The notes beneath the pieces are model-generated. The model was not told where the DNA came from. It saw only the letters and a list, made by a program, of their open reading frames with translations, and made no database searches. Positions 10,350-37,361 of a stretch of 64,000 nucleotides of DNA are shown piece by piece. Made by a program: the position numbers and the translations under genes. The DNA is from Selenomonas ruminantium subsp. lactilytica TAM6421 (GTDB lineage Bacteria; Bacillota; Negativicutes; Selenomonadales; Selenomonadaceae). The stretch's first letter is position 1; each line of letters begins with the position of its first letter. The stretch spans positions 2,914,001-2,978,000 of the forward strand of contig NC_017068.1 in NCBI RefSeq assembly GCF_000284095.1, read 5' to 3'.

Positions 10350-10369
10350 AATATTCCTCCCCCTCTGAA

Positions 10370-12074: not shown

Positions 12075-12095
12075 GCCTGTCACCTCTTTCTTACC

Positions 12096-16509: not shown

Positions 16510-17532
16510 TTAATAATGATTTTTCACTGTACCGGTCATGGCCGCGATATTCTCCACCGGAGTAGTGGTGGACAGGCCACAGGCAGGGGCGATGATATCG
16601 ATGCCCTTGCTTACGATATTCTCCGTTACCCGTTGCACTACATCCGGTGTCTGCAGCTGCAGGGCAAAGGTGCTCACATTGCCCATCACCGTGACGCCGC
16701 ATTCCGCCTTGAGCGCCTGCAGATTCACCATGGCGTCTGTACTCACCGCATCCCCGTGCAAAGCGGGGATGTGTTTTTTTACGGCATCCAATTTGCCGCA
16801 GATATGCACGATAACACGAGCATCCCGCTCATGGATGGCATCCACCAGTCGGTTCAGATAGGGTACGGCATAATCCCCGAACATCTTCGGGCCCAGGATT
16901 TCCCCGGTGGCCGTAGGATCGGCAATGGTGATAACGGGAAAACCGCTTTCAATCAGCACCTCCGCATAGCCAATGAGGAAATCCGTCACATAATCCAGCA
17001 CCCGATGGGCATTGGCCTTGTCCTTGCGCAATTCCTTCAGAAACGTCATGGGATCGACGATGGAGGCCGCTGTGGATACCGGCCCGGTCAGGCTGCCGAT
17101 AACCGGCACATCCGGATTCTTCTCCGCCATGTTCTGGCCGGCTCTGGCAATGGCCTCGATACGCCCCTCCTGCAGGAGCTCCTTGATATCACGCACCACT
17201 ACATCGGCTGTGGAAGCATAGCGTTCCTTCGCAATCTTTGGTTCGCAGGTGGCGTTGCCGAAGTCGATCTCACTGCCCAACACCTCTGCCTCCACCGTCA
17301 TGCAATAAGGAATGCCAAAGTTCTCAAAACCTGTCTTTTCCTCCACTGCCGCCGACAATTTGGTCATGGCTGCCGCATCCGGATGTACTTCCGGAAAAGT
17401 GAAACCGCAGCCTTCAATCACATCCACGGTGGCACTGTTCATCATGCCTCCGGGACAAATAACCGGGGCCCGGTCAACCGTCTTCCCGTCCAATACGCGC
17501 AGCAGCCGCTCTCTGGGTGAAATATCATTCAT
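16510..17532 (-). CDS. MtaA/UroD-family cobamide:acceptor methyltransferase (first of three)
   Basis: A 340-aa protein of the uroporphyrinogen-decarboxylase superfamily, methyltransferase branch (MtaA/MtbA/CmuA type), which moves methyl groups between a corrinoid protein and a thiol or other acceptor. Zinc ligands are visible as HICGKLD (near 242) and a later cysteine in IAPACGLS (near 317). The N-terminal ERLLRVLDGKTVDRAPV is typical. GGAGG precedes the ATG. It is the last gene of a unit with a corrinoid protein (12 bp upstream) and a double-4Fe-4S protein. The acceptor is unknown; coenzyme M is not expected in this organism. Confidence 0.82.
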   Translation of the reverse strand: MNDISPRERLLRVLDGKTVDRAPVICPGGMMNSATVDVIEGCGFTFPEVHPDAAAMTKLSAAVEEKTGFENFGIPYCMTVEAEVLGSEIDFGNATCEPKIAKERYASTADVVVRDIKELLQEGRIEAIARAGQNMAEKNPDVPVIGSLTGPVSTAASIVDPMTFLKELRKDKANAHRVLDYVTDFLIGYAEVLIESGFPVITIADPTATGEILGPKMFGDYAVPYLNRLVDAIHERDARVIVHICGKLDAVKKHIPALHGDAVSTDAMVNLQALKAECGVTVMGNVSTFALQLQTPDVVQRVTENIVSKGIDIIAPACGLSTTTPVENIAAMTGTVKNHY

Positions 17533-17544
17533 CGGGGCACCTCC

Positions 17545-18189
17545 TCACGACACCAGTTCCCGGGCCAGCCGGGCTGCCTCAGCTGCATTGACCGCGTAAA
17601 CGTCCGCACCGATTTTCTTGGCAAAGGCGGACGATATGGGGCCGCCGCCAATGATGACCTTGTAAGCCTCACGCCTGCCTTCCTTTTCCAGTTCTTCCAC
17701 CACCTCGCGCATGGCTGGCATAGCCGTGGTCATCAGGGTGGCCAGGGCGATGATGTCTGCCTTACTTTCCTCCGCTTGACGCAGGAATTCCCGGGCAGGA
17801 ATGTCCCTTCCCAGGTCGATGACCTCGAAGCCGGCACTCTCCAGCATGATCTTCACCAGATTCTTGCCAATGTCATGGGTATCCCCTTCCACCACGCCGA
17901 TGACCACGGTATGATGCTCACTATCCTGCCGCCTCTTGATATGCGGCTTCAATATCTCGATGCCCGCGTACATGGCATCCGAACACAGCAGCAGTTCCGG
18001 GATAAAGTATTCCTCTTCCTCATAGAGGCGCCCCACTTCCTCCATGCCCTGGGACAGGCCCTTTTCAATGGCCGCATAGGCGTCAAAGCCCTCATCCACC
18101 ACGGCTTGTGCCATTACAGCCGCCTGCTCCTCATCCATATCCACCACAGCTTCGGAAAGCACCTTATGCAATTCTTCTTCTCTTGTCAT
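17545..18189 (-). CDS. Corrinoid (cobalamin-binding) methyl-carrier protein, second copy
   Basis: A 214-aa two-domain carrier. The N-terminal helical cap (about 1-90) precedes a B12-binding Rossmann domain with GDTHDIGKN, placing the cobalt-ligating histidine at about 105 (DxHxxG) and a GGGP nucleotide-tail loop near 183. It shares length and layout with the corrinoid protein at 24.6-25.2 kb. The ATG at 18189 has AAGGAG 9 bp upstream. It lies between a UroD-type methyltransferase and an Fe-S protein, implying a second methyl-transfer or cobalt-reduction module. Confidence 0.88.
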   Translation of the reverse strand: MTREEELHKVLSEAVVDMDEEQAAVMAQAVVDEGFDAYAAIEKGLSQGMEEVGRLYEEEEYFIPELLLCSDAMYAGIEILKPHIKRRQDSEHHTVVIGVVEGDTHDIGKNLVKIMLESAGFEVIDLGRDIPAREFLRQAEESKADIIALATLMTTAMPAMREVVEELEKEGRREAYKVIIGGGPISSAFAKKIGADVYAVNAAEAARLARELVS

Positions 18190-18207
18190 AGCCAACCGCT
18201 CCTTCCA

Positions 18208-19002
18208 TTACAAATTCGCCACCGCATTTTTCGAGCCAAAATCCTGGCAATGTTCAATGCCCGCTGCACTTACAGCCTTGCTGCCCCAACGCTTCTTATC
18301 TGCCCCCACGGGACAGGCAGCGGTACACAGGCCGCAGGGATAGCGGTATTCATTTTTGATTTTCTGATGGTAACCGGCACATTTGAACTTGTCCATCCGG
18401 GCGATAATCTGCCCTTTCACTGGCGTAAAGGCCTGCATGGGACAACGCCGCATACAGGCACCACAGCCCAGGCAAAGCTCTTTCTTAACCATCCGGTCAG
18501 CGGGAATTTCCGCATCGGTGATGACCGACACCAGCCGCACCCGCGGGCCATACTCCTTGGTCAGCAGGGTATGGTTCATGCCAATGGTGCCCAGCCCCGC
18601 ATAGAGACCAGCCAGCACCTGGGAAAAAGCCGCTTCCGGTTTTTTCACCAGCACGGAGATATCACCGTAGCAGTCCCGGGGGAAAAAATGAGCCCGGTAA
18701 CCTTCCTCATTCAGAAAATTGGCCAGCCGGTAAGCAGCCTCATCCAGAAAACGATTGGTTGTATTATAAAGCTCCGAGTAAACCACCGAAGGGGTCGTTT
18801 CCAACATGGAGGGATAGATCTGCACCCCCAGCACGATCACCCGCCGGGCCCAGGGCCAGATGTTCTGGGGCCAGTAGGCCGGCGGCGTATGGGGCTGCTC
18901 TTCCCAGCGTTCCACGCTGGCCACGCCGAAAAGGTTCATGCCCAATGTCTTTGCCCGCCGCTTCAGTTTAGCTTTCAGAGCTGCTTTTTGCTTTGTTTCC
19001 AT
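18208..19002 (-). CDS. Double [4Fe-4S] protein related to epoxyqueuosine reductase
   Basis: A protein of about 264 aa with a QueG/reductive-dehalogenase-like N-terminal region (LYAGLGTIGMNH, about residue 155) and two 4Fe-4S motifs: CLGCGACMRRCP and, further on, CAGYH...CGLCTAACP. It lacks the full length and HEAT-repeat tail of true QueG. Related short proteins occur beside corrinoid methyltransferases and are thought to supply electrons to cobalamin. Start is uncertain between 19002 and 19017. Its neighbours (corrinoid protein, methyltransferase) favour a corrinoid reductase role over queuosine synthesis. Confidence 0.7.
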   Translation of the reverse strand: METKQKAALKAKLKRRAKTLGMNLFGVASVERWEEQPHTPPAYWPQNIWPWARRVIVLGVQIYPSMLETTPSVVYSELYNTTNRFLDEAAYRLANFLNEEGYRAHFFPRDCYGDISVLVKKPEAAFSQVLAGLYAGLGTIGMNHTLLTKEYGPRVRLVSVITDAEIPADRMVKKELCLGCGACMRRCPMQAFTPVKGQIIARMDKFKCAGYHQKIKNEYRYPCGLCTAACPVGADKKRWGSKAVSAAGIEHCQDFGSKNAVANL

Positions 19003-19049
19003 ATCATCACCATACATTCCATCAGTATTTTTTCTTATGGGCTGAAATA

Positions 19050-19112
19050 ACAAACGGAGGCTTCGGACAGAATGCACCTGCATCTTCCGAAGCCTCCGTT
19101 TGTTACGGTCAG
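19050..19112 (-). ncRNA. Attenuator leader of the Fe-S/corrinoid/UroD unit
   Basis: CTGA (19109-19112), hairpin CCGT-AACAA-ACGG (19096-19108), AGG, then the terminator (arms from about 19053 to 19099) with TTTGTT. The small hairpin and terminator share ACGG and are mutually exclusive. The 5' end GGCTTC can also pair with the GGAGGC of the terminator arm. Confidence 0.7.
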
Positions 19113-19176: not shown

Positions 19177-20076
19177 TTATTTCAAGTTCAATTTGTATAG
19201 GCAGCCTCCGGCAGGGCAATAGGTACGCTGTATGCAGCCATGACCTATGCAGCGGACATCCGGCGCCTGAATTGCCTGCAGCAGAGCTTCGCCATAGCTC
19301 ACCCCCGCCTTGGGCACAATGCGCTCCATGGTACAAAATCCTGCTTTCTGGAAGGCTACAGAAGTCTTGTTGCAGAGATGGATCACCACCTTTTCCGTGG
19401 CATTTTCGATGGCTTGCAGGACCTCATAGGAAATTTCGCCGCAAAGCTCCGTATAGAGCTGGGGGGAAATCAGTTCCGCCGCCACCGTGGGATCTGCATA
19501 GGAAAGGATGCTCACGCCATGGGCTTCTGCCTCCCGGGCATAACGCACCAGCTGGGAAGTGATCCAGCGGCTCAGGCTGCGCAGCTTTTCCTGCTGCCGG
19601 TAAATCCCCTTGTAAATCTGCTTGGAAGGCACCAGCTGCCCCAAAATGGTGAAGGGGCCTTCCATATTCAGTATGACTGTCTCCCCCGCCTCACTCAGCA
19701 TCGAGGCAGCCCGCAGCACTTCATGCACCCGTCCTTGGGAAAAATCCATGGCCGGCAGTGTGGGAATATCCTCCACCCGCTCATAACGGAAATGGGACAC
19801 AGCGGGCACCCCGTACAGGGAATTGAGGGAAACATCTGCCCCAAAGGCCTCGGCCTCAATGGTCACACAAAAGGGCAGTTTGCAAAACACATCCTGATTC
19901 CGTCTTTTCACCTCCAATGCGGCCTTTACCATATCCTCCGCCCTGCTGAAAACCGCCGCATAACGGGCCCCGGCATTGGCACACATTTCCTCGGTAATGG
20001 GGCGTTCCGGCTCTCCCAGGCAGTCAAAGGACAGCTCCTTGGCAATCGCTTCATTCCATGTTTCTGATTCGGCCAT
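19177..20076 (-). CDS. MtaA/UroD-family methyltransferase homologue (second, short)
   Basis: A 299-aa UroD-superfamily protein, about 40 residues shorter than its two paralogues because the usual N-terminal segment is missing. VVIHLCNKTS keeps the H-x-C zinc motif and GHGCIQRTYCPAGG provides a later cysteine. Other family positions (LNMEGPFTILGQL; SYADPTVAAELISP) are retained. GAGGTGG precedes the ATG. It ends the MtmB-RamA operon, 20 bp after the activase gene. The truncated front could alter acceptor specificity; the function is not assignable beyond methyl transfer. Confidence 0.75.
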   Translation of the reverse strand: MAESETWNEAIAKELSFDCLGEPERPITEEMCANAGARYAAVFSRAEDMVKAALEVKRRNQDVFCKLPFCVTIEAEAFGADVSLNSLYGVPAVSHFRYERVEDIPTLPAMDFSQGRVHEVLRAASMLSEAGETVILNMEGPFTILGQLVPSKQIYKGIYRQQEKLRSLSRWITSQLVRYAREAEAHGVSILSYADPTVAAELISPQLYTELCGEISYEVLQAIENATEKVVIHLCNKTSVAFQKAGFCTMERIVPKAGVSYGEALLQAIQAPDVRCIGHGCIQRTYCPAGGCLYKLNLK

Positions 20077-20096: not shown

Positions 20097-21998
20097 CTAT
20101 TGCAAATGAGGGAATTGGGCCCGGGCATGGGGAATGGCAATGGCCTCCATGAATTTCTGCTGGAAGTCCGGCTCAATGGCCGTTTCCACGAATTCCACCT
20201 GCCGGGCAACCCTGGCCGCCTCCCGCCGCTTATCGGCATTCAGCAGGGCAATGCGGGCGCCGTCCCCGGCGGCATTGCCTACTGCCTGTACATGCTCAAG
20301 CTCGCAGTCCGGGAACATGCCGATGGCCAGCGCGCTTTTCTTGTTGATATAACTGCCAAAGGCCCCAGCCAGTATCACTTCATCCACATGGCTGACACCA
20401 TATTTTTCCAGCAGATACTCTGCACCTACATACAGGGCCGCCTTGGCCAGCTGCACAGCCCGCACATCCCCCTGGGTGATGACAATGTCCCTGCCAATGG
20501 CAGTTTCTTGTGCCCAGGCCAGCACATACTCCAACTTGCCGCTTTCCCCTTTGCGCACTCTGGGGGTATCCAGTTTTCCATTGATGCGCCCTGCCTTGGA
20601 GATGATTTCGGCACCTGCCATAGCGGCAATCACATCAATAATGCCGGAGCCGCAGATTCCCTGGGGTTTTGCCCCCTGAGCCTGCCCGATGACCTTGTAT
20701 GCCGGCTCATAGGTGTCCTTGTCAATTTCCACGGCCTCAATGGCCCCTGGGGCCGCCCGCATGCCAAAGGCAATCTGCGCCCCCTCCAAAGCCGGGCCTG
20801 TGGCACAGGAAGTGGAAAGCATGCGCTCCTTGTTGCCCAAATCAATCTCCCCATTGGTACCAATATCGATGATAAGTTTTATCTCCTCCCCCTTGTAAGG
20901 TTCCTCTGCCAGCAGCACCGCCATATTGTCTGCTCCCACAAAGCCGGCCTCCACCGGCAGGGAGTGGACGTTGCCTGCCGGATTGATATGCAACCCCAAA
21001 TCACGGGCTTTCACATCCAGTGGCGCCCTGACCGCCGGAGCAAAGGGTGCCCGCCCCACATAACGGGGATCGAGTCCCAAAGCCAGATGGTGCATGGCGG
21101 TATTGTAGACCAGCACCATCTCATCCACATCAGCTGGTACAAAGCCTGCCTGCGCCGTCATTTCTGCTGCCAAGGCGTCCAACGCTTCGATAATGGCCCG
21201 TTGGAGTTTTGTCCGCCCCTCGTCCTCCGATACGGCATAGGAAATCCGTGCCAGCACATCCTCCCCATAGCCTATCTGCGGATTCATGCGGGAGGACTTC
21301 GCCAATACCGCACCGGTATTCAGGTCACAGAGAAAGGCCGCCAGTGTAGTGGTGCCAATATCCACGGCAATGCCCAGACTGGTCTGTCTCTGCCCCGGTG
21401 TCACCCGGATAACCTCCCGGTTCTGCCAGATGGCAACCGTTACCTGCCAGTCCTCCGTCCGAAGAATTTTGGGCAGTTCCTTCAAAACAGGATAATCCAC
21501 CGTAAGATTTTGCAGGCCGGTCTTTTCTGCCAGTACCGCCAGCAGGCGTTCCCGGTCATCCCGGAAATCCTCCAGGGTGGCGGCGGGCAATGTCACAGTA
21601 TAGTTCTTTACCGCTGGTTTCAGTTCAATCCTGCGTTCCTGTCCTTTTTCCAAAATCACCTGCTTGGTGCTGCGGCTTTCCTCCGGCACAGTCACCACCA
21701 AGTCCCCTGTCAGAAAGGCATTACAGGCCAGCCGATAACCACGGGACAATTCCTCCTCTGTCAGGAAGCGTCGTTCCGTTTCCCCCACAGGGGAAACATG
21801 GCTGGCAGCGGAAATCAGATTGAGTTTTTCAAAATGTCCTCCTTCCACAATAACCCGGCATTTGCCGCAAACCTTCCCCCCGCCACAGGCAGCTTCGATG
21901 CCCACACCCAGGGAGCGAGCGGCTTCCAGCAGGCTCTTGCCGGCCTCGACTTCGCCACGCTTGCCGGATGGCTGGAACACGACCTGCACAGTTGACAT
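20097..21998 (-). CDS. RamA-like ATP-dependent corrinoid reductive activase
   Basis: A 633-aa protein that restores inactive Co(II) corrinoid to Co(I) using ATP. An N-terminal 2Fe-2S ferredoxin domain has Cys38, Cys44, Cys47 and Cys92; a linker follows; the C-terminal ASKHA-like region starts at GIAVDIGTTTLAAF (about 212) and includes LIIDIGTNGEI and ILAGAFGSYINKKSALAIG. This is the RACo/DUF4445 architecture with a plant-type ferredoxin front, unlike archaeal RamA, which carries C-terminal 4Fe-4S motifs. AGGAGG lies 8 bp before the ATG. It serves the corrinoid proteins of this cluster. Confidence 0.85.
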   Translation of the reverse strand: MSTVQVVFQPSGKRGEVEAGKSLLEAARSLGVGIEAACGGGKVCGKCRVIVEGGHFEKLNLISAASHVSPVGETERRFLTEEELSRGYRLACNAFLTGDLVVTVPEESRSTKQVILEKGQERRIELKPAVKNYTVTLPAATLEDFRDDRERLLAVLAEKTGLQNLTVDYPVLKELPKILRTEDWQVTVAIWQNREVIRVTPGQRQTSLGIAVDIGTTTLAAFLCDLNTGAVLAKSSRMNPQIGYGEDVLARISYAVSEDEGRTKLQRAIIEALDALAAEMTAQAGFVPADVDEMVLVYNTAMHHLALGLDPRYVGRAPFAPAVRAPLDVKARDLGLHINPAGNVHSLPVEAGFVGADNMAVLLAEEPYKGEEIKLIIDIGTNGEIDLGNKERMLSTSCATGPALEGAQIAFGMRAAPGAIEAVEIDKDTYEPAYKVIGQAQGAKPQGICGSGIIDVIAAMAGAEIISKAGRINGKLDTPRVRKGESGKLEYVLAWAQETAIGRDIVITQGDVRAVQLAKAALYVGAEYLLEKYGVSHVDEVILAGAFGSYINKKSALAIGMFPDCELEHVQAVGNAAGDGARIALLNADKRREAARVARQVEFVETAIEPDFQQKFMEAIAIPHARAQFPHLQ

Positions 21999-22013
21999 AA
22001 GCTTCACCTCCTT

Positions 22014-23033
22014 TTATTCCGCCCTGTTGCCCGCTACCTCAGCCATGGCAATGAGATTTGCCAAAGGCGTATTGGGGGCCACCGAACAGTCGGGCGAGAT
22101 AAGCGCGACGCCATCGGCCGCCGACTTCGCCACTGCCGCCGCCACATCCTCCCGACTGCCTTCCAGCAGTACCTTTATGGGATGCACGGCACCGATTATA
22201 GGGGTCTTAATGCCCGCTTCGGCAAAATTCTGCCGGGCCTTTTGGATATCCACGGCAGATTCCACGCTGATGGCATCTGCACCGGTATCTGCAATATCGG
22301 TCATCACCTGATCCAATTTGCCGCAGATATGGACAATCACGGGTATTTTCCCGGCCACCGACGCAATCAGCTGCTTCTCAAAGGGCGCCGCCAGCGCCCG
22401 GTAGGTTTTCGGGCTTATCATGTCCAGGGACGCCATCATATCCTCGATGACCAGGGCATCGGCCCCGGCTTCGATAACTGCCGCAGCATACTGCTTAGCC
22501 GTCTCGGTGGCGGCCTCAATATAGGGCAGAATGGTGTCCGGCTTTCTGAGGCTGGCCTTCAGCAGGGCTGAAATGCCTACCAGATTGGCCGCCACGCTGA
22601 AAGGCCCCACAATGCTGCCCATAACCAGTGCCTTATCCCCCACCTGCCGCTTCAGAATGCGGATTGCTTCCAGAATGGCAGGAATGCGTCCCCGCCCCGT
22701 AAAGTTTTCGGGGATTACCGGCACATCACCAATTTTATAGGCAGGTTCGGCAATGCTGGGGATATGAGTCCTGCCGCCATCCTTAATCCTGGAGCCGAAA
22801 ATCTCCGCCTCCACGGTCTGGCAGTAGGGCACCCGCACAGCCCCCAGTCCGATGATATCCGCACCACCGGCCGCCAATTTTGCCATAGGCTCGGCCTCGT
22901 AATGGGCTTCCGGCCAGTAAGCCCCTGTCTTTTCCATCAGTTCATAGGTGGCATACTGACAGACGCTGATGGCCGGCGGTGTTCCTCCTTCCCCTCGCAG
23001 AGCCGCCAGCACTCTGTCCCTAAGTTTGCTCAT
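22014..23033 (-). CDS. MtaA/UroD-family methyltransferase (third)
   Basis: A 339-aa protein of the same methyltransferase branch as the 16.5-kb gene. Zinc ligands: VIVHICGKLDQV (near 240) and LISPDCSVAPNTP (near 315). VMGSIVGPFSVAANLVG and DALVIEDMMAS are family positions. It lies 35 bp after the MtmB-like gene and directly before the RamA-like activase, so it most likely accepts the methyl group from the MtmB-loaded corrinoid protein. The final acceptor could be a thiol such as homocysteine, given the sulfur-linked regulation, but this is inferred. Confidence 0.82.
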   Translation of the reverse strand: MSKLRDRVLAALRGEGGTPPAISVCQYATYELMEKTGAYWPEAHYEAEPMAKLAAGGADIIGLGAVRVPYCQTVEAEIFGSRIKDGGRTHIPSIAEPAYKIGDVPVIPENFTGRGRIPAILEAIRILKRQVGDKALVMGSIVGPFSVAANLVGISALLKASLRKPDTILPYIEAATETAKQYAAAVIEAGADALVIEDMMASLDMISPKTYRALAAPFEKQLIASVAGKIPVIVHICGKLDQVMTDIADTGADAISVESAVDIQKARQNFAEAGIKTPIIGAVHPIKVLLEGSREDVAAAVAKSAADGVALISPDCSVAPNTPLANLIAMAEVAGNRAE

Positions 23034-23068
23034 CCTCATCTTCCTTTCTCATTTATTTCAGGCCGCTA

Positions 23069-24484
23069 TCATTTGATGGGCAGCCCTATTTCCCGCAGTT
23101 CGGCTTTGACTTTATTGTAAATGGCCAGATACTCAGGTTTCGGCTGTATGGTGGTCAGGTCATAGACTTCACGGAAGTCACCGCCCTTGGTATGCAGGGT
23201 ACGATTGTCGATCAACGGCTGGTACTTGGGCAGAATCCTGTTGACCAGATCATTGGCCTGCTGACGCGTCAGCCTTGCCTTGCCGACAGCCCGGCCTACT
23301 TCCGCAGCAAATCTTGCCCCTAAGCCGCAGGCATGGTCAAGGCCCGCACTCTGATGGCCGGTGCCGCCAGCCACCAGGAAGCCCAGGGTGGCGCTGCCGA
23401 TGGCACCTGCCGCCGTCTCCCAGAAATATTCCTCGCTGCCGATGCCTGCCGTCATCTGCCAGGCCGCGCCCACCAGAGCGGGGAAGTGGGTGTGCTTCTG
23501 GAAAGCCGCACCGCCGTAGTTCGCCACATAAAGGGCATACTTGCTGGAATTGCTAAAATAGAGGGCATCCGTGGGCCAGGTGCCCAGAATGGTGGGCTCG
23601 TAGAGCATGACATAGGCCAGCAGGTCGGCTACGCCGTTCACGGCCGAAGTAGCAGGGCCGCCTGCCGCGCCGCCGATATAGGACTGGAGAATGCCCCAGA
23701 TATTGGCGCCGTACTGATGCCAGAAATAGGCACGGCACATCTGGTCATAGTCCGTCTTGAGCTGCGGCATGATGTAGACATGACGTACATCCCCCTTGCC
23801 CACCCCCCAGAGCGGATTGGCTGCCGCCATTTCCGCCCGAAGATTTACCGGAGTGGAGCCGCCATCGGGATAGCCGGGACGTCCCACCCGGCGCAGTACG
23901 TCCTTGACGGTGGAAACATGCTGTATTTCCGCCATCATCTCAAAGGGCGAGCCCGGCTTGATGGGAATGCCGTTAATCTTTTCCTTAACCCCCTGAAAAT
24001 GCGTATACGTAACCAAAGGCTCCTGGGCATAGGACAGGGCAATCTTCTCATAGAGGTCGTCGGAGATGGGACCTAAGATTCTGCCCATAACCCCCACGGG
24101 AGTCGGGCCGCTGTCATAGTCCTCAAAGCCCCTGTGGGGAATGGTGATGGCATCCTTACCCTCGCCCAGAGTTACCTCTGTGGGCAGATTTTCCAGTGCT
24201 TCGTCCACCTCATCTTCCGTAAAGGTGATGCGGCGTTCTGTGTTCACGTTCAGTATGCCCACATCCAACAGGAGTTCCTTGCCTGCCTGCCAGATGGCAT
24301 CCAGTTCATCATCATCCGTGGGTACCACCTTGCCCGGTTCATACTCGATATTGTATTTCTTGGTCAGCTCTTTCAGGCGTGGCCAGTAGATTTTCGTGTC
24401 AAATTCCTTCTGAAAGGCAATGGGGCCTGTCTCACCGCGCCCCCAATATTCGATAAACTTTCCCTTGGTTCCATGTACGCTCAT
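23069..24484 (-). CDS. MtmB-family methylamine:corrinoid methyltransferase homologue without pyrrolysine
   Basis: A 471-aa protein aligning by eye along its whole length with archaeal monomethylamine methyltransferase MtmB: PTDDDELDAIWQAGKELLLD, then TFTEDEVDEAL, LGEGKDAI, GPISDDLYEKIALSYAQEP, RVGRPG, QLKTDYDQM, GGAAGGPA and a C-terminal YDLTTIQPKPEYLAIY. Archaeal MtmB has an in-frame amber codon for pyrrolysine near residue 202; here all 471 codons are sense and the stop is TGA. The catalytic residue is therefore different and the substrate need not be methylamine. It follows its corrinoid protein and precedes a UroD-type methyltransferase. Confidence 0.75.
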   Translation of the reverse strand: MSVHGTKGKFIEYWGRGETGPIAFQKEFDTKIYWPRLKELTKKYNIEYEPGKVVPTDDDELDAIWQAGKELLLDVGILNVNTERRITFTEDEVDEALENLPTEVTLGEGKDAITIPHRGFEDYDSGPTPVGVMGRILGPISDDLYEKIALSYAQEPLVTYTHFQGVKEKINGIPIKPGSPFEMMAEIQHVSTVKDVLRRVGRPGYPDGGSTPVNLRAEMAAANPLWGVGKGDVRHVYIMPQLKTDYDQMCRAYFWHQYGANIWGILQSYIGGAAGGPATSAVNGVADLLAYVMLYEPTILGTWPTDALYFSNSSKYALYVANYGGAAFQKHTHFPALVGAAWQMTAGIGSEEYFWETAAGAIGSATLGFLVAGGTGHQSAGLDHACGLGARFAAEVGRAVGKARLTRQQANDLVNRILPKYQPLIDNRTLHTKGGDFREVYDLTTIQPKPEYLAIYNKVKAELREIGLPIK

Positions 24485-24557: not shown

Positions 24558-25208
24558 CTATGCCACCCGGAGCAGCTTCTTGGCCAGCTCCACCGTGGCA
24601 ATGGCATCCTGGCCATAACCGTCCGCCTTGATTTCATCGGCCCAATCCTGGGTGACGACACCGCCGCCCACAAAGACCAGGTAATTATTCCGAACGCCCT
24701 TAGCCTCCAGGAAGTCAATCAAGTCCTTCTGCACCGGGCGGGTTGTGGACATCAGGGAAGCGGCGGCAATGATCTTGGCCCCCACCTTTTTGGCTTCTTC
24801 CAGGAAACGGGACGGGGCCACATCCACACCCAGGTCATATACATCAAAGCCAGCCGTGGTCAGGAAAGTGGCCACCATGTCCTTGCCTACCTGATGTACA
24901 TCCCCCTGTACCGTGCCGATAACGACCGGGATGGCTTTCTCGCCCTCCGTGTGTCTCTTCTTCAGTTCCGGTTCCAGAACCTCCAAGGCAGCCTTGAAGG
25001 CATCCGAGGCCAGCATGATTTCCGGCAGGAACACCTCCATCTTCTCAAAGGCTTCGCCCAACTCATTGAGCCCCTCTGCCAAAGAGCCGATAGCTTCTAC
25101 AGGATCCAGGCCTTCCGCTACTGCCTCCTTGGCCGCTTCCAGGGCCACATCTTCGTCAAAATCCAGAATTGACTGTTTCAATTTCGCTAAAATATCTGCC
25201 ATACTCAT
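24558..25208 (-). CDS. Corrinoid methyl-carrier protein, MtmC/MttC type
   Basis: A 216-aa carrier with helical cap (about 1-90) and B12-binding domain containing GDVHQVGKD; Asp103, His105 and Gly108 form the DxHxxG cobalt-ligand motif, and FVGGGVV (near 185) forms the tail pocket. It is the first gene of the methyltransferase operon, 73 bp before the MtmB-like gene. AAAGGA precedes two closely spaced ATGs; start at 25208 or 25202. Expression is set by a promoter with a LysR-type palindrome and an attenuator leader. Confidence 0.9.
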   Translation of the reverse strand: MSMADILAKLKQSILDFDEDVALEAAKEAVAEGLDPVEAIGSLAEGLNELGEAFEKMEVFLPEIMLASDAFKAALEVLEPELKKRHTEGEKAIPVVIGTVQGDVHQVGKDMVATFLTTAGFDVYDLGVDVAPSRFLEEAKKVGAKIIAAASLMSTTRPVQKDLIDFLEAKGVRNNYLVFVGGGVVTQDWADEIKADGYGQDAIATVELAKKLLRVA

Positions 25209-25450: not shown

Positions 25451-26272
25451 TCATATCACCGCCAGATCTGATATTTCCTCCTCATAGGCAGCAGGCTGCT
25501 CGCGATGAATCAATTTTCCTATGTAGTTTGTGATCTCACGCAGCTCAGGCAGATCCCGCAAGGTGGCAATACTGCGAGGCCAGGGCACCGTCACATCCAC
25601 GACTTCGCGGAATGTACCCGGATTGGCCTTCATGACGACAACACGGTCTGCCAGCGCCGCAGCCTCGAAAACATCGTGAGTGACAAAGATGATGGTTTTA
25701 TTGGTCGTGCTGGTAATATGCAGAAGTTCATCCTGCAGCGTTGCCCTGGTCTCAGGATCCAGAGCGGCAAAAGGCTCATCCATCAGCAAAAACGGCGGAT
25801 CAGAGGCAAGTGCCCTGGCAATCGCCACGCGCTGGCGCATGCCGCCTGAAAGCTCATCGGGATAACGGTCCTCATAGCCTTCCATGAAAACCTTGCGCAG
25901 TTCCCTTTGACTGATCTGCCTGCGCTCCTCCTTGGGTACATTCCTGAGCGACAGGGGGAACTCCACATTTTCCCTGACCGTCAGCCAAGGGAACAGCGCG
26001 TAGCCCTGCTGCACCATGCCGCAACGTACGGCCGTTTCGCTGGTAGGCTGCCCATCCACAAGAATTTCCCCTGACGAAGGCTGCGACAACCCCGCCAGCA
26101 GGTCCAGCAAAGTGGACTTGCCGCAGCCCGAAGGCCCCACAATGGAGATAAATTCCCCTTCCTCGACCTTCAGATTCAGGTTATTCAGCACATTCACAGG
26201 TTCCTCATTCCCGTTGCCGGTATAATCACGGCTCACCTTTGAAAGTACCAGTTTCCATTTCTTTTCCTGCAT
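25451..26272 (-). CDS. ABC transporter ATPase, TauB/SsuB type
   Basis: A 273-aa ATPase with Walker A GPSGCGKST, Q-loop VQQGYALFPWLT, signature LSGGMRQR and Walker B LLMDEPFAALDP. It belongs to the nitrate/sulfonate/taurine importer branch. AGGAGG precedes the ATG. Together with the permease and binding protein just upstream it forms one importer; the next operon downstream is the corrinoid methyltransferase cluster with the same regulatory palindrome, so the importer probably supplies its substrate. Confidence 0.88.
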   Translation of the reverse strand: MQEKKWKLVLSKVSRDYTGNGNEEPVNVLNNLNLKVEEGEFISIVGPSGCGKSTLLDLLAGLSQPSSGEILVDGQPTSETAVRCGMVQQGYALFPWLTVRENVEFPLSLRNVPKEERRQISQRELRKVFMEGYEDRYPDELSGGMRQRVAIARALASDPPFLLMDEPFAALDPETRATLQDELLHITSTTNKTIIFVTHDVFEAAALADRVVVMKANPGTFREVVDVTVPWPRSIATLRDLPELREITNYIGKLIHREQPAAYEEEISDLAVI

Positions 26273-26284
26273 AACTGATTCCTC

Positions 26285-27118
26285 CTATGCCGAAAGCCGG
26301 TAGTGGCAGACGTATTTTTCTGCTTTGAGCAGCAGATAGTTCACGATGACGCCCAGAGCCGCAATGAGCAGAATGGCGGCGTACATGTTCGCATTCTGGA
26401 AGACATGCTGCGAATAAGATACCAGATAGCCCAGGCCAGCCTTGGCCCCGAGCATTTCTGCCGCGCAGAGCATCAGGATCGCATAGGATGCACTGATCTT
26501 GATTCCCGGGAAAATTTCCGGCAATGAGGCCGGGAACACGACGCGCCGGATTATCTGCCAGTTTGTCGCCCCCATGGTCCGCACTGCTTTTACCAGCAGC
26601 GGATCAGTATGTCCGACACCGGAAATGGTATTCAAAAGGATTGGCCAGACACAGCCCCAAAAGATAATGCCCACCTTGGACACCTCGCCCACCCCAAAGA
26701 CCACGATGAAGAACGGAAACAGAGCAATGGGCGAAGTCTGGGCAATAATGGTCAGGAGCGGGTTCAGCGTATCCTTAATGCGCACATTCCAGCCGATCAG
26801 GATGCCCAGCGTAATGCCCACCAGCAGCGAGAGCACAAAACCCAAACCGGCTCGCCCAAGACTTGCCGCAATATGATTGAAGATGACACCGGATTTTACC
26901 ATTGTCACAATGGCCTGCAGATCAGCTGACAGCGGCGGAATGATAATCGGATCAACCAGGCCAATGCGTGGTGCAGTTTCCCAAAAGAGAAAGAAGGCGA
27001 GGACAGGGACAGCACTGCTTGCCGCCTTTATCACCTTCTGGTGCCTGCCTGCAGAATTCTTGATTTCCCTGACTACATTTCGTTCATCCAAAGGTCGTTC
27101 ATGCGTGATTGCTTCCAT
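26285..27118 (-). CDS. ABC transporter permease, TauC/SsuC type
   Basis: A 277-aa inner-membrane permease with about six helices and the EAA-like loop AVRTMGATNWQIIRRVVFPASLP region (split here as VRTMGATNWQ and VFPASLPEIF). The start at 27118 is taken because GGGAGG lies 9 bp upstream and the upstream gene stops 2 bp earlier. The branch imports sulfonates, taurine, nitrate, aromatic or vitamin precursors; the actual cargo is unknown. Confidence 0.88.
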   Translation of the reverse strand: MEAITHERPLDERNVVREIKNSAGRHQKVIKAASSAVPVLAFFLFWETAPRIGLVDPIIIPPLSADLQAIVTMVKSGVIFNHIAASLGRAGLGFVLSLLVGITLGILIGWNVRIKDTLNPLLTIIAQTSPIALFPFFIVVFGVGEVSKVGIIFWGCVWPILLNTISGVGHTDPLLVKAVRTMGATNWQIIRRVVFPASLPEIFPGIKISASYAILMLCAAEMLGAKAGLGYLVSYSQHVFQNANMYAAILLIAALGVIVNYLLLKAEKYVCHYRLSA

Positions 27119-27120
27119 AT

Positions 27121-28137
27121 TCATCTACCTCCCTTGTTATACGGATTATATTGATTCGTGTAAAGTTCATCAAGGGACACGGGGCGTGCCAGCAGGCCAT
27201 ATTTGCCCGAGATCCGCACCCACAGGTCAGCATCTGACTTGTCGATAAGCGCATGCTCCGGGAACACCGGATTATAAAGCGCCCCCTGGGACGGATCGAC
27301 ATTGAGGGCCTTGGCTATGACAAGACCTGCCTCGTCGGGATTCGCCCGGGCCCAGTCGTTGGCATCGGCGATTGCGGCCACATAGCGTTTCACAATTTCA
27401 GGATTCTTCTCCAGGAAAGCTGTATTGACAAACTGCTGCGGCCAGCCTTTTTCCTCACCGACAATGTCCACCAGCGTGCCAATCTGCTTCACACTCTCAT
27501 TCGTCAGCAAGCGGTCAGAAAAGGGATTGATGAGCATCACCGCATCCACCTGATGGCTCAAAAGAGCACCATCCATCTTCTCGTAGGAAATCACTGTCTC
27601 ATCCACATCGCCGTCCTTGAAGTTCAGCTTATCTTTCGCCTCCAGCCATTCCAGCTCTGTTGGTGTCGGAATGGCAATCTTATGGCCGCGAAGATCGTCA
27701 AGATTGTTTATGCCGGAATCCTTCAGCGTCAGGAAACGAAGCATCGGTTTCTCCGCCGAAGTCCCCCAGCCGGCAGCGATTGCCTTGATGGGATAGCCAT
27801 TGGAAATGCCGACAGCCAGAGTTGAGGCATGCTGGCAGGCAAAGGGGAAATTCCCGGAGGCCACATTCGTCACGATATCATTGATGTTGGCAAGATACCC
27901 GGTAAAATTCACCTTCAGGCCATGCTTGGCAAAAAAGCCTTTTTCTGCCGCTATATAAACAGGATCTGACCAGGGAACATTGGGAAAATTGAATTCATAA
28001 ACTTCATTTTCATCCACCTTCTCGGCTGACTTCTTGGTATCACTGCCGCAGCCTGCCAGCACGATCACCAATACCAGCGCCAAAGCTGCCAGTACACTAT
28101 ATATAGCATTTCTTCTTTCCGTCTCACTCATATTCAT
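27121..28137 (-). CDS. ABC transporter substrate-binding lipoprotein, SsuA/TauA/NMT1 type
   Basis: A 338-aa lipoprotein (signal peptide with cysteine in VLAGC near residue 30). PVYIAAEKGFFAKHGLKV and VASGNFPFACQHAST are typical of this family; DDLRGHKIAIPTP marks the second lobe hinge. It is not of the OpuAC type that binds betaines. GAGAGG precedes two ATGs at 28137 and 28131. It is preceded by a 22-codon cysteine-ending reading frame and a long regulated leader. The ligand may be a methylated compound used by the MtmB/corrinoid system. Confidence 0.85.
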   Translation of the reverse strand: MNMSETERRNAIYSVLAALALVLVIVLAGCGSDTKKSAEKVDENEVYEFNFPNVPWSDPVYIAAEKGFFAKHGLKVNFTGYLANINDIVTNVASGNFPFACQHASTLAVGISNGYPIKAIAAGWGTSAEKPMLRFLTLKDSGINNLDDLRGHKIAIPTPTELEWLEAKDKLNFKDGDVDETVISYEKMDGALLSHQVDAVMLINPFSDRLLTNESVKQIGTLVDIVGEEKGWPQQFVNTAFLEKNPEIVKRYVAAIADANDWARANPDEAGLVIAKALNVDPSQGALYNPVFPEHALIDKSDADLWVRISGKYGLLARPVSLDELYTNQYNPYNKGGR

Positions 28138-28589: not shown

Positions 28590-29507
28590 TCATTTCGTTT
28601 TTGTGATGACCTGCTTAGCAGCCTTTTCCAACAGCTTGAGATAGGCATGCCCCAGTTCCGACATACGGCAGTCCATATGACGTATCACACCAACAGTAAT
28701 CTTTTCTTCCACAGCCAGCGGGCGCGCGATGATATCCTGGCCATGCAGATGGGAAGGCAGTATCCCTGTGGTAATGATATAGGCGTCCAATCCCAGCAAG
28801 AGATCCGACACCGCTGCCCGATCCGTTACCTGGATATGTTTTGCCAACGAACGCTCACAGAACATTTCCTCCGAATAGTAAAAAGAATTTTCCTCCCCCT
28901 GATCAAATGTAATGCAGGGAAAGGGCTCCAGGTCTTCCAACGTCAGGGTATCCTTCTTCGCCAATGGATGGTCGCGAAAGATAAAGACATGGGGCTTTAC
29001 CATAAAGAGCGGCGAGAAATACAGTTTGCTTTCCTTGAAAATCTTGCGCAGCACGGCCTCATTGAAGCGGCTTAAATACAAAATGCCAATCTCACTCTTC
29101 AAAGTCCTGACATTCTCTATGATCTTCTCCGTACGCTCCTCCAGCAGCGAAAATTCATATCCCCAGCCTTCGTACTGCCGGACCAGCTCGACGAAGGCGC
29201 TGGCCGTGAAGGTGTAATGCTGCGTGGAGACCGCAAAATACTGTTTGCTCTCCGCATGCAGATAACGCTCCTCCAGCATTTCCATCTGGCGCAGAATCTG
29301 CTTGGCATGACCGAGGAATTTCAGCCCCTCATCGGTCAGCTGCACGCCGCGCGAATTGCGGATGAAAAGATCCCTGCCAATCTCCTTTTCCAAATCCTGC
29401 AGCGCTGTCGTCATGCTGGGCTGTGTCACAAACAGCTGCCTGGCCGCCAGGCTGATAGAGCCATATTTCGCGATAGCAGTTACATATCTTAGCTGCGTAA
29501 ATGTCAT
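28590..29507 (-). CDS. LysR-family regulator of the transporter/methyltransferase genes
   Basis: A 305-aa LysR protein: helix-turn-helix in residues 1-60 (SISLAARQLFVTQPSMTTAL) and an effector-binding domain after about residue 90. The start at 29507 has GGAGG 9 bp upstream. It lies directly upstream of the ABC transporter operon on the same strand. The shared palindrome CTATGGCT...CATAG before that operon and the MtmB operon is its likely target. Its own message probably starts at the sulfur-type promoter of the yezD-like gene and passes an attenuator, so sulfur status would control its level. Compare the CysB/Cbl cascade for alternative sulfur sources. Confidence 0.85.
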   Translation of the reverse strand: MTFTQLRYVTAIAKYGSISLAARQLFVTQPSMTTALQDLEKEIGRDLFIRNSRGVQLTDEGLKFLGHAKQILRQMEMLEERYLHAESKQYFAVSTQHYTFTASAFVELVRQYEGWGYEFSLLEERTEKIIENVRTLKSEIGILYLSRFNEAVLRKIFKESKLYFSPLFMVKPHVFIFRDHPLAKKDTLTLEDLEPFPCITFDQGEENSFYYSEEMFCERSLAKHIQVTDRAAVSDLLLGLDAYIITTGILPSHLHGQDIIARPLAVEEKITVGVIRHMDCRMSELGHAYLKLLEKAAKQVITKTK

Positions 29508-29529
29508 GGCCGTCTCCCTCCTTAATACA

Positions 29530-29571
29530 AAAAGCCGTGCGTAAATACGCACAGCCCTCAGTTCTGATCAG
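29530..29571 (-). ncRNA. Attenuator leader before the LysR gene
   Basis: CTGA (29568-29571), TCAG-AA-CTGA, GGG, and a terminator GGGCTGTGCGT/ACGCACGGC with T5. It is the most compact copy: the 2-nt loop means only about three pairs can form. It separates the yezD-like gene from the LysR gene. Confidence 0.6.
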
Positions 29572-30096: not shown

Positions 30097-31464
30097 TTAA
30101 GCCGATTTGCTGATGGCTGTGGTGAATATCTTTTCCAGCAAGGTCAGGGCACCACGATAGCCGATGTAGGTCTTGTTCAGGACAACATCGTAGGATACGG
30201 GGTAGCTGACTTCCACAATGTGGCCGTTCAGCTCCTTCACCACATCCCGTTCCCAGGTAGTGCCCAGGATGATGGGGGGCTTATGCCCATAATCCTGTTC
30301 TTTCAACAATTTATTGACGACATAGCCGTCTTCCACGAATTCCACCTCGGCAGCCACATCATCAGCCAGATGCTGATAATATTCCTGAATACCCTGACGG
30401 TATTTTTCCGGGGTTTGATCGGTAATGATCTGTTTGGCGGGGATCAGCCCCAGCTGGTTCACGAGGAACTTGTTCAGGGCCAGATTGTAGGCTGCATCGC
30501 TGACCACCGCATAGGAGGCGGGCAGGCCCCACCAATACTCGGCGTAGAAGTCCGTAAAGTATTCCATGTAGTAGTAATACTCCTTTTCCTCCGCCTTGAT
30601 GAATTTTTCCGTTTGTACCTCGTTTTCCTGAGCAAAGTCCACAATAGCCCGCAGGAATTCAGCCACCTGTTTGGCACCGATGGGCAGTACCGGCAGATGG
30701 AGATAGGGCTGGTTGTATTTCTTCTCCAGCAGCTTGGCGGTCTTGAGTCCCAGCCAGGGGCCAATCACGAGGTTGAACTCCGCATTGGGAATGGTCAGCC
30801 ATTCCTTGACACCGCCGGAACCGTAACCGAAGAGGATATTGACCTCCCAGCCGGCACCTTCGAGAATGCGCTTGAGCTCTGCCAGATCTCCCCGCCAGAA
30901 GGTATTCTGGAAGGGCAGTTCCGACCAGACGTTGATCAGGCCCTTTTTCTTGGTGGTCTTGTCCGGGGCGAATTTGTCCACGTACTGCTCGATGATGGCT
31001 TCCGTGACAATCTCGTGACCGGTGAAGTTGTTGCCCTTGAAGCCACCGGTTTCTGCCGAGACGATGGGCACTCCCTTCTTCTGGTAACGGGCCACCACGG
31101 CGCCGATATCGTCACCGACGATTTCCGGGATACAGCCGTTGAGCACCACGAACAAGTCCGCTTCCATGATTTTCAGAGAAGCCGCAATGAGCTGGTCCAG
31201 ATGCTTGGCCCCGCCAAAGACCACGTCCTTTTCCTGCAGGTTGGAGCTTGGCGTTACAGCGCCGCCGGCATAGCCACCGCCCTGATAGCCGTTGTAGAAG
31301 GCCAGACTCATGTACTGCTTGTCCACGCAACCCGGGCCGCAGTGGGTAATGGGCATGGCACCGGGAATGGCGGTGACGGAATGGAGCGCCCCCAGGGCAC
31401 AGCCATAGCGCACCTGATTGATGGAATTTGTCTGTCCGTTGTTATCGCGTTTTATTTTAGGCAT
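30097..31464 (-). CDS. marK: Nitrogenase-like reductase beta subunit (MarK-type)
   Basis: A 455-aa NifK-related subunit. Cys22 (RYGCALGA), Cys46 (HCGPGC) and Cys111 (LNGCIPEIVGDD) match the three P-cluster cysteines of NifK; Cys42 is extra. It is about 60 residues shorter than typical NifK and lacks its long N-terminal arm. The start at 31464 has GGAGG 9 bp upstream and overlaps marD by 8 bp. With MarD it should form the catalytic heterotetramer. The order B-H-D-K and sulfur-metabolism context match methylthio-alkane reductase, which releases methanethiol from small methyl thioethers; substrate remains inferred. Confidence 0.75.
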   Translation of the reverse strand: MPKIKRDNNGQTNSINQVRYGCALGALHSVTAIPGAMPITHCGPGCVDKQYMSLAFYNGYQGGGYAGGAVTPSSNLQEKDVVFGGAKHLDQLIAASLKIMEADLFVVLNGCIPEIVGDDIGAVVARYQKKGVPIVSAETGGFKGNNFTGHEIVTEAIIEQYVDKFAPDKTTKKKGLINVWSELPFQNTFWRGDLAELKRILEGAGWEVNILFGYGSGGVKEWLTIPNAEFNLVIGPWLGLKTAKLLEKKYNQPYLHLPVLPIGAKQVAEFLRAIVDFAQENEVQTEKFIKAEEKEYYYYMEYFTDFYAEYWWGLPASYAVVSDAAYNLALNKFLVNQLGLIPAKQIITDQTPEKYRQGIQEYYQHLADDVAAEVEFVEDGYVVNKLLKEQDYGHKPPIILGTTWERDVVKELNGHIVEVSYPVSYDVVLNKTYIGYRGALTLLEKIFTTAISKSA

Positions 31465-33040
31465 GGGCACCACCCTCCGCTGCTTTTACATAATCGTTGT
31501 CGTCTTCGTCAATGAGTTCCGGATGCTTGGCCAGGATATAGGCATCCTTCTGTTCCAGCCACCACTGCTTATAGGGCAGCTGGACATGCTTCCGGATATC
31601 ATCATGGAATTTCTTATGGGCCAGGATTTCCAGGATGGTTTCCCCGAGGTTGATCATGCCGTCATAGCCCACGGCGATATGCTCATCGCCTAAAGGTGCT
31701 GCCGGAATGCCCAGACGGGAAGCCAGAGGCGCCAGGCCGTTGTGACGGATCAGCAGGAAATCGGGCTTCACCTGCTGCAGGAATGCATACAGCTGATACT
31801 GCTGACGGTTGGACACATGGAAGTTATTGACCTTGCCGTAGTGCTTGTTCAGATAGCCCAGAGAATCCTCCTTGGGATCGCCGCTGTCATACACGGGATC
31901 ATGATGGAAGGTCAGGGAGCCATCCACCTCAATGCCCAGTTCCCGCATGACCTGAATCAGACCATGAGCATAGGCTGAGCCGGTGGCCACAAAGCCCTTG
32001 ACGCCCTTGAGCTTTTTCTTGAGCTCTTCCACTTTTGGTTTGACCCGGGCATGCTCCTTGGCGATAAAGTCCTCCACCAGATGTTCCCGATGGGTAACCC
32101 GGGCCAGTTCCCGCAGCCAGGCATCCGTACCCTCAAAACCATAGGGCATGGGGGCCTTGACCTCCGGCACGCCGAAGTGCTGCTCCAGAGCCGTGGCCAG
32201 ATAAGAGGACAGGGTGTAGCAGAAGCCCACTGTGGCCGCCGCCTCAGACATCTGAGCCAGTTCTTCCACGGAAGCCAGATCCACCACATAGTTTACCCGC
32301 AGGTTCAGGTTCTTGAGCAGCGGGGTGAATACATCAGACCCCCAGAGGTTGATGACATTGACCAGATCCTCCTGCTTCTTCTGGGGATTGCGGCGCACAA
32401 TCTGCCGCAATATCCCGTGCTGGGTGGCGTCAAAGCCCGTGCTCCAATGCTTGGAGCGGAAGCCTTCGCAGGCCAGCGGTACTACGGGAATGTCCAATTC
32501 TGCTTCCTTCTCGTCCGCAATGCTTTCGATATCCTCACCGATAATGCCTGTGGCGCAGGAGGAAGCGACGAAGATGGCCTCGGGCTTGTATCGTTCCCAG
32601 GCATCGTCAATGGTCTGACGCAGTTTGTCAGCAGCACCGAACACCATGTCACTTTCCTTCAGATTGGTATTGATGATGCGGATGTTTTCGACTTTGTACC
32701 CGCGCATGGCCAGACCGTTGCGATAGATGGCATTGTACTCCACCTGTCCGCCGCCGCAGCCTATGGGGGCATGCTGGATCAGCACCGCATCACGGACGTT
32801 GCCCGCCTGGCATTCCACCATCTGCTCACTGCAGACAGAGCCCTGGGTAAAGGGGCCGGAAAGTTCGCAGAGACGGCAGTTGCCGCCGCAGCCCTTCTTG
32901 CCCTTCTCCTTTTGCCCCCGCAGTTCGTATGCAGACTGCTCGTGCAGTTCCTCCGTGCTGCCATCCCAGGCAATTATCGTCCCCAGACGCTGTTCACGGG
33001 GTTCCACGGAGGCCATATCCAGATTTATTTTCTTTGGCAT
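31457..33040 (-). CDS. marD: Nitrogenase-like reductase alpha subunit (MarD-type)
   Basis: A 527-aa NifD-related catalytic subunit. P-cluster ligands Cys70, Cys95 (HAPIGCGG) and Cys162 (SSCATGIIGEDI) are present, as are the active-site cofactor ligands Cys274 (GFCYTLSSYL) and His454 (GDEHIAVGYDG). The NifD motif CEGFRGVSQSLGHH reads CEGFRSKHWSTGFD, so the Gln191 and His195 needed for N2 reduction are Trp199 and Phe203. An extra Cys51-x3-Cys55-x2-Cys58 lies near the N-terminus. The ATG at 33040 follows AGGAGG by 8 bp. These features favour a nitrogenase-like C-S bond-cleaving reductase over nitrogenase. Confidence 0.78.
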   Translation of the reverse strand: MPKKINLDMASVEPREQRLGTIIAWDGSTEELHEQSAYELRGQKEKGKKGCGGNCRLCELSGPFTQGSVCSEQMVECQAGNVRDAVLIQHAPIGCGGGQVEYNAIYRNGLAMRGYKVENIRIINTNLKESDMVFGAADKLRQTIDDAWERYKPEAIFVASSCATGIIGEDIESIADEKEAELDIPVVPLACEGFRSKHWSTGFDATQHGILRQIVRRNPQKKQEDLVNVINLWGSDVFTPLLKNLNLRVNYVVDLASVEELAQMSEAAATVGFCYTLSSYLATALEQHFGVPEVKAPMPYGFEGTDAWLRELARVTHREHLVEDFIAKEHARVKPKVEELKKKLKGVKGFVATGSAYAHGLIQVMRELGIEVDGSLTFHHDPVYDSGDPKEDSLGYLNKHYGKVNNFHVSNRQQYQLYAFLQQVKPDFLLIRHNGLAPLASRLGIPAAPLGDEHIAVGYDGMINLGETILEILAHKKFHDDIRKHVQLPYKQWWLEQKDAYILAKHPELIDEDDNDYVKAAEGGAHA

Positions 33041-33055
33041 AAGCATAACCTCCTG

Positions 33056-33940
<885 letters not shown>

Positions 33941-34825: not shown

Positions 34826-34848
34826 CGCGATACGTCCCCTTTCTGACA

Positions 34849-35211: not shown

Positions 35212-35216
35212 ATACT

Positions 35217-36131: not shown

Positions 36132-36151
36132 GATCTTCCGTCCTCCCCTTC

Positions 36152-37312: not shown

Positions 37313-37361
37313 AAAACCTGTCATTCCCTTCACGCAAATCTTAGTTTTCAATCATTTTCCT

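Follow-up and report, generated by a model that had tools for sequence, protein, structure and literature searches.

What does an MtmB-family methyltransferase do when it is encoded without pyrrolysine (Pyl)? The question is raised by a gene at 23069..24484 on the minus strand of the window, the stretch of 64,000 nucleotides from Selenomonas ruminantium subsp. lactilytica TAM6421 that was analyzed here. Judged from sequence and gene content, it is rather probable that the protein works without Pyl to feed methyl groups into a corrinoid system, which passes them to a thiol for the acquisition of sulfur or methionine.

The minus-strand frame runs uninterrupted for 471 amino acids to a TGA stop, with no TAG in frame and with GGAGG ahead of the ATG. 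It is the frame that the original prediction had described with no strand given; frame 1 of the plus strand is broken over the same stretch. The full-length likeness to MtmB, previously seen by eye, was borne out by a PF05369 match of 240.9 bits (cut-off 25), which aligns residues 12-468 with positions 5-450 of the 450 in the profile, and by a match to PDB entry 1l2q, M. barkeri MtmB1, over residues 12-468 (E 2.8e-42). The protein was the sole PF05369 match in its genome, and the MttB family (PF06253) had no match there. As PF05369 was the sole family matched by the protein, its place in the MtmB branch, as opposed to a different family, stands. An Rfam scan at the gathering threshold and a tRNA scan of the window found nothing, and nor did a plasmid search with the protein query P0001.

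Aligning the family places Gly208 of the window protein in the column of Pyl202, which settles the identity of the residue at the pyrrolysine position (four short open reading frames, from L028, L035 and, twice, L052, were dropped from this alignment). With neither an in-frame amber codon nor Pyl202, the protein is not a pyrrolysine MtmB proper. The reported lack of pyl genes in the window was confirmed: PylS, PylB, PylC and PylD queries from a Pyl cluster of the same genus gave no match at E<=1e-3 in the 64 kb. A pyl system elsewhere in the genome was looked for by PylD, and nothing was found over the cut-off. Two weak matches lay below it; nine Pyl-lacking control genomes, E. coli among them, gave such weak matches too. 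PylD exceeded the cut-off in three of three genomes of the same family with an in-frame TAG in mtmB versus none of seven Selenomonadaceae genomes carrying the Pyl-free gene; in six of these seven, TAM6421 included, the PylD matches were weak and control-like. The two Nitrospirota carrier genomes had no PylD match.

Glu229, Glu259, Gln333 and Tyr335, which from the MtmB structure papers we take to be the Pyl-pocket residues of MtmB, were invariant in all 10 Pyl rows of the alignment. In the clade of the window protein E229 is replaced by H235, E259 by I265 and Y335 by Q343; all 15 clade sequences compared share these three changes and that of Pyl202 to G208. Q333 is replaced by A, S or G, with A341 in the window protein. 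The residue alignments comprised 20 clade rows, some of them one gene from two collections, and a second set of 15 rows from different loci. The replacement of several Pyl-MtmB-invariant residues makes it likely that the substrate is something other than methylamine.

A contig scan with P0001 found 19 loci. Fifteen have labels of the Selenomonadaceae or Selenomonadales type, Selenomonas and Schwartzia included, and are 88-96% identical; the remaining four are an Acidaminococcaceae-labelled locus (88%), two Nitrospirota MAGs (66-67%) and a Lachnospiraceae-labelled fragment. Carriers include S. ruminantium HD4 and Schwartzia succinivorans DSM 10502, and the rumen is named in several, not all, of the record titles. 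The clade gene in the Lachnospiraceae-labelled fragment (L028, 96%) and the Acidaminococcaceae-labelled locus (L025) may reflect misbinning or transfer.

In a tree of 46 MtmB rows the window clade, Nitrospirota rows included, and the Pyl clade were separate, each with support of 100/100. The other non-Pyl proteins fell into further groups, some long-branched, with the order between groups not settled and no MtqB row; 10 rows (L001, L005-L009, L013, L051, L055 and L056) that duplicated others fully or nearly were omitted and a long-branch warning applies. By sequence, the window MtmB is thus placed outside the Pyl clade, in a Selenomonadaceae and Nitrospirota clade of its own. The possibility that the amber codon was lost only recently was rejected, both because of this placement and because many positions invariant in Pyl-MtmB differ in the clade.

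Among 380 genomes of the class, 38 had a match, 17 from the window clade and 21 with a TAG. Leaving aside short fragments in G892 and G898, both of the window clade, no genome had both kinds, and this mutual absence is no strong exclusion because chance overlap would be about one genome. Of 398 genomes sampled from the phylum, 27 had PF05369 matches, and 41 of the 51 matches listed, some of which are fragments, had no TAG. The original prediction had held that Pyl-free relatives are characterized mainly from the MttB family (MtgB, MtpB, MtcB) and had treated a Pyl-free MtmB as unusual. Such rarity is not supported, given the 41 matches and the assay of MtqB. The accompanying proposal of an MtmB-branch enzyme with a new substrate fared better: the branch, the lack of Pyl and the replaced invariant residues stand, with a non-methylamine substrate likely, and only the supposed rarity of Pyl-free MtmB falls.

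MtqB of Methanococcoides methylutens Q3c, assayed in 2026, is described in PMC13044021 as the first MtmB lacking Pyl to have its function demonstrated. It acted on tetramethylammonium, choline and MMA at 37, 42 and 11 nmol/min/mg, respectively, with no activity on TMA or glycine betaine. MtqB resembles the window protein in being a non-Pyl MtmB homologue, and it has a cognate corrinoid protein and an MtbA-type partner. It differs in coming from an archaeal methanogen and in feeding CoM, with no sulfur genes mentioned in the same excerpt, and the two are likened by description only. When 'Ca. Formimonas warabiya' DCMF grew on dichloromethane (DCM), no protein was induced more strongly than another bacterial non-Pyl member of the MtmB superfamily, Ga0180325_111810 (PMC9768040); this induction sets it apart from the window protein so far, and the comparison is by description only. 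A link to a chloromethane enzyme within the MtmB family was rejected, since CdmB is a UroD-superfamily member (PMC13222342). The idea of a non-Pyl MtmB with another substrate is already known from the accessible sections of these reports (PMC13044021; PMC9768040), and what is new is the gene neighbourhood. In the literature searched, with most subscription journals and bioRxiv outside it, we recognized no report that places an MtmB-family protein in a sulfur or mlp/MarHDK setting or describes an exchange of Pyl and non-Pyl heads.

The gene order in the window is binding protein, permease and ATPase of an ABC importer, CoP1, MtmB, UroD1, RACo, UroDs, a 4Fe-4S protein, CoP2 and UroD3, all on the minus strand like the further genes given below. 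CoP1 (24558..25208; B12-binding and B12-binding_2 domains) is a corrinoid protein and the putative methyl carrier for MtmB, which it adjoins in all clade loci mapped, Nitrospirota included. UroD1 (22014..23039), a candidate thiol methylase (MTII) of the MtaA/CmuA family, matched URO-D with 216.6 bits. It exceeded the cut-offs of PRK06252 (314.6 bits) and mtaA_cmuA (257.9 bits) and stayed below that of MtaA_Meth (301.9 bits, cut-off 400). A RACo/AcsV-like corrinoid reductive activase follows (20097..22007; RACo_C_ter 325 bits, Fer2; AcsV 508 bits, below the cut-off of 800), then UroDs, a short UROD-family protein of 299 amino acids with a Cys-rich C terminus (19177..20076; URO-D 81.8 bits), and a 4Fe-4S protein that is distantly QueG/RDH-like (18208..19083; matches below NCBIfam cut-offs). 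The last two genes encode the second corrinoid protein, CoP2 (17545..18195; profile match), and UroD3 (16510..17532), an MtaA/CmuA-family methyltransferase with the motif His243-Cys245...Cys318 (URO-D 250.8 bits; PRK06252 378 bits, over cut-off). Promoter-like sites, which are consensus matches only, were found ahead of the binding protein gene, ahead of the 4Fe-4S gene and 3' of UroD3.

This gene set was found to go with the clade. UroD3 at a level of at least 73% occurred in exactly the same six of 60 relatives as the Pyl-free MtmB (p = 2e-8, ignoring kinship). UroD1, UroD3 and UroDs had no match at E<=1e-20 in any of 12 loci that encode other non-Pyl MtmB proteins, and RACo was found in one. 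Weak UroD matches of 22-28% were seen at four of the 12, and those of three were placed elsewhere in the UroD tree. With UroD1, UroD3 (His-Cys-Cys), CoP1, CoP2 and RACo together, the window cluster would classify as a type I mlp cluster. Such clusters, from C. ljungdahlii, H. thermocellum and M. voltae, are described in the available part of PMC10418091 as having several MtaA-like proteins, a corrinoid protein, Ram/RACE and nearby sulfur genes with MarHDK. An MtmB-family donor is not described in that part of version 4 (version 3 has mtmB once), whereas the window cluster has one built in.

The ABC importer (25451..28137) consists of an ATPase (25451-26272), a permease (26285-27124) and an NMT1/SsuA-like binding protein (27121-28137; SsuA_fam 84.8 bits, below the cut-off of 163.5), and substrate uptake for MtmB is a possible role. 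A LysR-type regulator, matched by LysR family models below their cut-offs, is encoded at 28590..29552. In L016 the LysR, binding protein, permease and ATPase cassette of the window (75-84%) lies near MtmB in another order, with importer homologues at 79-84%, which suggests that importer and MtmB are functionally linked.

The best PDB match of UroD1 was M. mazei MtaA (4ay7, 213.7 bits), and its motif is His237-Cys239...Cys318. A His-Cys-Cys motif is tied to S- or Se-methyl transfer in the portion of PMC10418091 available. Exactly two PF00809 matches were found in each of seven carrier genomes, in open reading frames of the lengths expected for FolP and MetH (the assignment is by length), and neither a separate MtrH protein nor a third pterin-binding protein was seen in the seven. 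MtrH matches were absent in four carriers and weak in three (one just over the cut-off), all inside the MetH-length frame. Because UroD1 is MtaA-like with a His-Cys-Cys motif, and because the PF00809 proteins are of FolP and MetH length with no separate MtrH, a thiol appears the likelier methyl acceptor, most likely homocysteine or sulfide. CoP1 might alternatively pair with MetH in place of UroD1. Because the carriers showed neither a third pterin-binding protein nor a separate MtrH, we consider energy methylotrophy into folate unlikely.

In the scheme that we propose, the MtmB-family protein would serve as MTI, taking a methyl group from its donor independently of Pyl, with CoP1 as the carrier. 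A thiol would then be methylated from CH3-Co(III)-CoP1 by UroD1, an MtaA-like Zn methyltransferase, and Co(II) would be reduced again by the RACo protein. The role in Selenomonadaceae would be sulfur and/or methionine acquisition and not energy metabolism. We infer the direction of transfer, the thiol acceptor and the methyl donor in this scheme.

The surroundings of the cluster bear on the donor. MarK, MarD and MarH, which are methylthio-alkane reductase-like, are encoded at 30097..33934. MarD matched 9fmg_A with 834 bits versus 130 bits for the next nitrogenase chain, MarK matched 9d9u_C/9fmg with 671 bits, and MarH belongs to the NifH family. 9FMG is a MarDK2H2 complex with genes cloned from R. 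rubrum in the available text of PMC12552129. By these matches MarD, MarK and the NifH-type reductase would constitute a methylthio-alkane reductase (MarHDK). A MarD query of the TAM6421 genome gave two matches, MarD and MarK only, and thus no other nitrogenase-type pair was seen. Next to these genes are NifB-like and dinitrogenase-cofactor-domain proteins (33962..35220; profile matches) and CysK-like and cystathionine gamma-lyase/synthase-like (CGL) enzymes (35217..37351; profile matches), while an MGL-like enzyme and a MetNIQ-type transporter (9156..12923) lie just over 10 kb from MtmB. MGL and MetNIQ homologues are close to MtmB in two S. ruminantium loci (L021 and L023). Among the 60 relatives, MarD at a level of at least 70% was found in five of six with Pyl-free MtmB versus 13 of 54 without (p 0.008); inside the genus the association was not clear (four of four versus eight of 18, p 0.10). 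The carrier G027 had no MarD match.

We compared the 10 kb around MtmB at E<=1e-30 for AmtB and nine sulfur genes between 17 clade loci (the window and L010-L025) and 15 of the 21 TAG genomes (G934, G935, G937, G938, G939 and G941 were left out). AmtB was found at 12 of 15 Pyl loci (L086, L087, L113, L114, L116-L120, L122, L124 and L130) versus none of 17 clade loci (Fisher 2e-6), and at least one sulfur gene at none of 15 Pyl loci versus 14 of 17 clade loci (Fisher 1.5e-6). The Fisher values overstate the case because the loci are close kin, the sulfur list was picked after seeing the loci, and the sulfur queries all come from clade genomes (the AmtB query came from a Pyl cluster). The clade loci with no sulfur gene are L012, which is 6.9 kb, and L019 and L020, which are both above 10 kb, as are 15 of the clade loci in all; nor was any sulfur gene found at the Nitrospirota loci L026, L027 and L084. 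Three distinct sulfur arrangements were seen: MarHDK as in the window, MetNIQ with MGL in S. ruminantium, and LarE, at times accompanied by IscS, in loci of the Schwartzia type; this IscS may be a chance housekeeping neighbour. MarHDK is also present on the same 20 kb in L080 and L081, roughly 11-15 kb from MtmB. The MetNIQ/MGL and CysK/CGL genes of the window are excluded from these counts, being slightly more than 10 kb away.

The Pyl clusters resemble that of the window in other respects. M. barkeri MtmB1 (1L2Q) shares PF05369 with the window protein over the full length at 26.6% identity and has corrinoid and MtaA-type proteins as neighbours; the window protein differs from it in the Gly at Pyl202, in the four replaced pocket residues, in having no genomic PylD over the cut-off and in its separate clade. 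Four of the 15 Pyl loci (L086, L087, L113 and L114) were found to have a related full set beside Pyl-MtmB, in the order AmtB, two corrinoid proteins, UroD3, RACo, corrinoid protein, UroD1, UroDs, MtmB(TAG), RACo and pyl genes; L087 ends past pylS. Relative to the window, L086 and L087 contain UroD1 at 57-60%, UroD3 at 55%, RACo at 45-49% and UroDs at 33%, with corrinoid proteins in the cluster, but their mtmB has an in-frame TAG, pyl genes lie next to it, and AmtB takes the place of the sulfur genes. In the other 11 Pyl loci RACo and UroDs occurred together in seven, and none of the four genes was present in L116 and L118; UroD1 and UroD3 cross-match at the threshold used. In a quick tree UroD1 of the clade and that of the Pyl clusters L086, L087 and L113 were sisters (SH-aLRT 95), with Nitrospirota next (97). 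As AmtB lies within 10 kb of Pyl-MtmB in 12 of 15 loci, methylamine suggests itself as a nitrogen source for these bacteria. The UroD1/RACo set is itself no proof of a sulfur donor, because a kindred set serves Pyl-MtmB beside AmtB.

The strongest clue to the role of MtmB, of which the original prediction had made no use, is the sulfur neighbourhood together with the kinship of the gene set to the Pyl-MtmB clusters. As the donor, a methyl-sulfur compound (a sulfonium such as DMSP or S-methylmethionine, or a thioether) is quite possible and is favoured by the sulfur context and the absence of AmtB. A quaternary amine (choline, tetramethylammonium or betaine), favoured by the activity of MtqB on tetramethylammonium and choline, is possible as well, and some other donor is less likely.

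A demethylase of such a sulfonium or thioether that frees the sulfur for assimilation is a tentative reading. MarHDK, MetNIQ, MGL, CysK, CGL and LarE around the clade MtmB in three arrangements, and AmtB missing from 17 of 17 clade loci, are in agreement with it, as is the link of mlp clusters near MarHDK to methyl-sulfur use in the sections available of PMC10418091. However, a sulfur-acting MtmB-family enzyme was not recognized in the literature searched, and the UROD paralogues of the cluster could themselves perform S-demethylation.

It is more doubtful that the protein is a quaternary-amine (MtqB-like) or betaine demethylase, with the sulfur context reflecting only the use of the methyl group to convert homocysteine to methionine. 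MtqB, the first non-Pyl MtmB with a shown function, acts on two quaternary amines in the available part of PMC13044021, and UroD1 is kin to the UroD1 of methylamine-type clusters. Clade-specific aromatic residues, W226, Y237, Y253, F254, W255, W263, W303, W342 and W355 among them, are located at positions that are invariant and different in Pyl-MtmB, and they could form a cation-binding box. A structure prediction from 15 clade sequences was set aside at a pLDDT of 39, however, and the aromatics are thus not placed in a structure. Moreover, none of 28 window genes (9156-38270) was named by its best family match as serving choline or betaine uptake or breakdown.

Continued use of monomethylamine or another simple methylamine in the absence of Pyl is improbable. 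MtqB has low MMA activity in the accessible text (11 versus 37-42 nmol/min/mg; PMC13044021), and the family and the corrinoid partner are conserved; against this, Pyl, E229, E259, Q333 and Y335 are all replaced and AmtB was found at none of the 17 clade loci. Compared with the gene of HD4 (L021), 240 of 468 codons were identical, 181 differed synonymously and 47 non-synonymously, with 49, 28 and 201 differences at codon positions 1, 2 and 3. The excess of synonymous over non-synonymous changes means that the gene is under strong purifying selection. A vestigial or non-catalytic relic, to which the lost active-site residues and the second-copy fragments adjoining the gene in L018 and L129 could point, is very improbable given this selection, the 88-96% identity across the family and the retention of the CoP1-MtmB pair, also in Nitrospirota.

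The preferred reading, a Pyl-independent donor enzyme in a thiol-methylating corrinoid system, can be extended. More speculatively, a single set (UroD1, UroD3, RACo and corrinoid proteins) may be served by interchangeable MtmB heads, with Pyl, AmtB and pyl genes for methylamine nitrogen and a Pyl-free head with sulfur genes for a methylated-sulfur source. If so, the window protein would be the first MtmB-family S-demethylase, and pyrrolysine an adaptation for the primary-amine substrate alone. Because the clade connects one MtmB branch with a sulfur context and a conserved set of genes in HD4 and DSM 10502, both named strains, the substrate is directly testable. The contrast with Pyl-MtmB/AmtB clusters within one bacterial family bears on why methylamine enzymes need pyrrolysine.

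Second copies and rearranged loci were also observed. Second-copy MtmB fragments of 64-74 amino acids (58-73% identity) adjoin the intact gene in L018 and L129 and are probably a decaying duplicate. L026 belongs to genome G449, which, with two matches, was the only one to match PF05369 in a sample of 245 genomes from its phylum. The second MtmB of this genome (L084, 7750-9210; 55% identical) is accompanied by a corrinoid protein and adjoins iron-sulfur and molybdopterin-oxidoreductase-like genes, as judged by eye. L026 has an AAA protein after UroD1, and L027 additionally has a VWA-like protein (by eye) and a DUF1638 gene before CoP1. In another member of the phylum the MtmB homologue (G116:C1:1186395-1187742) is present in two overlapping frames, which may represent a frameshift or a true split.
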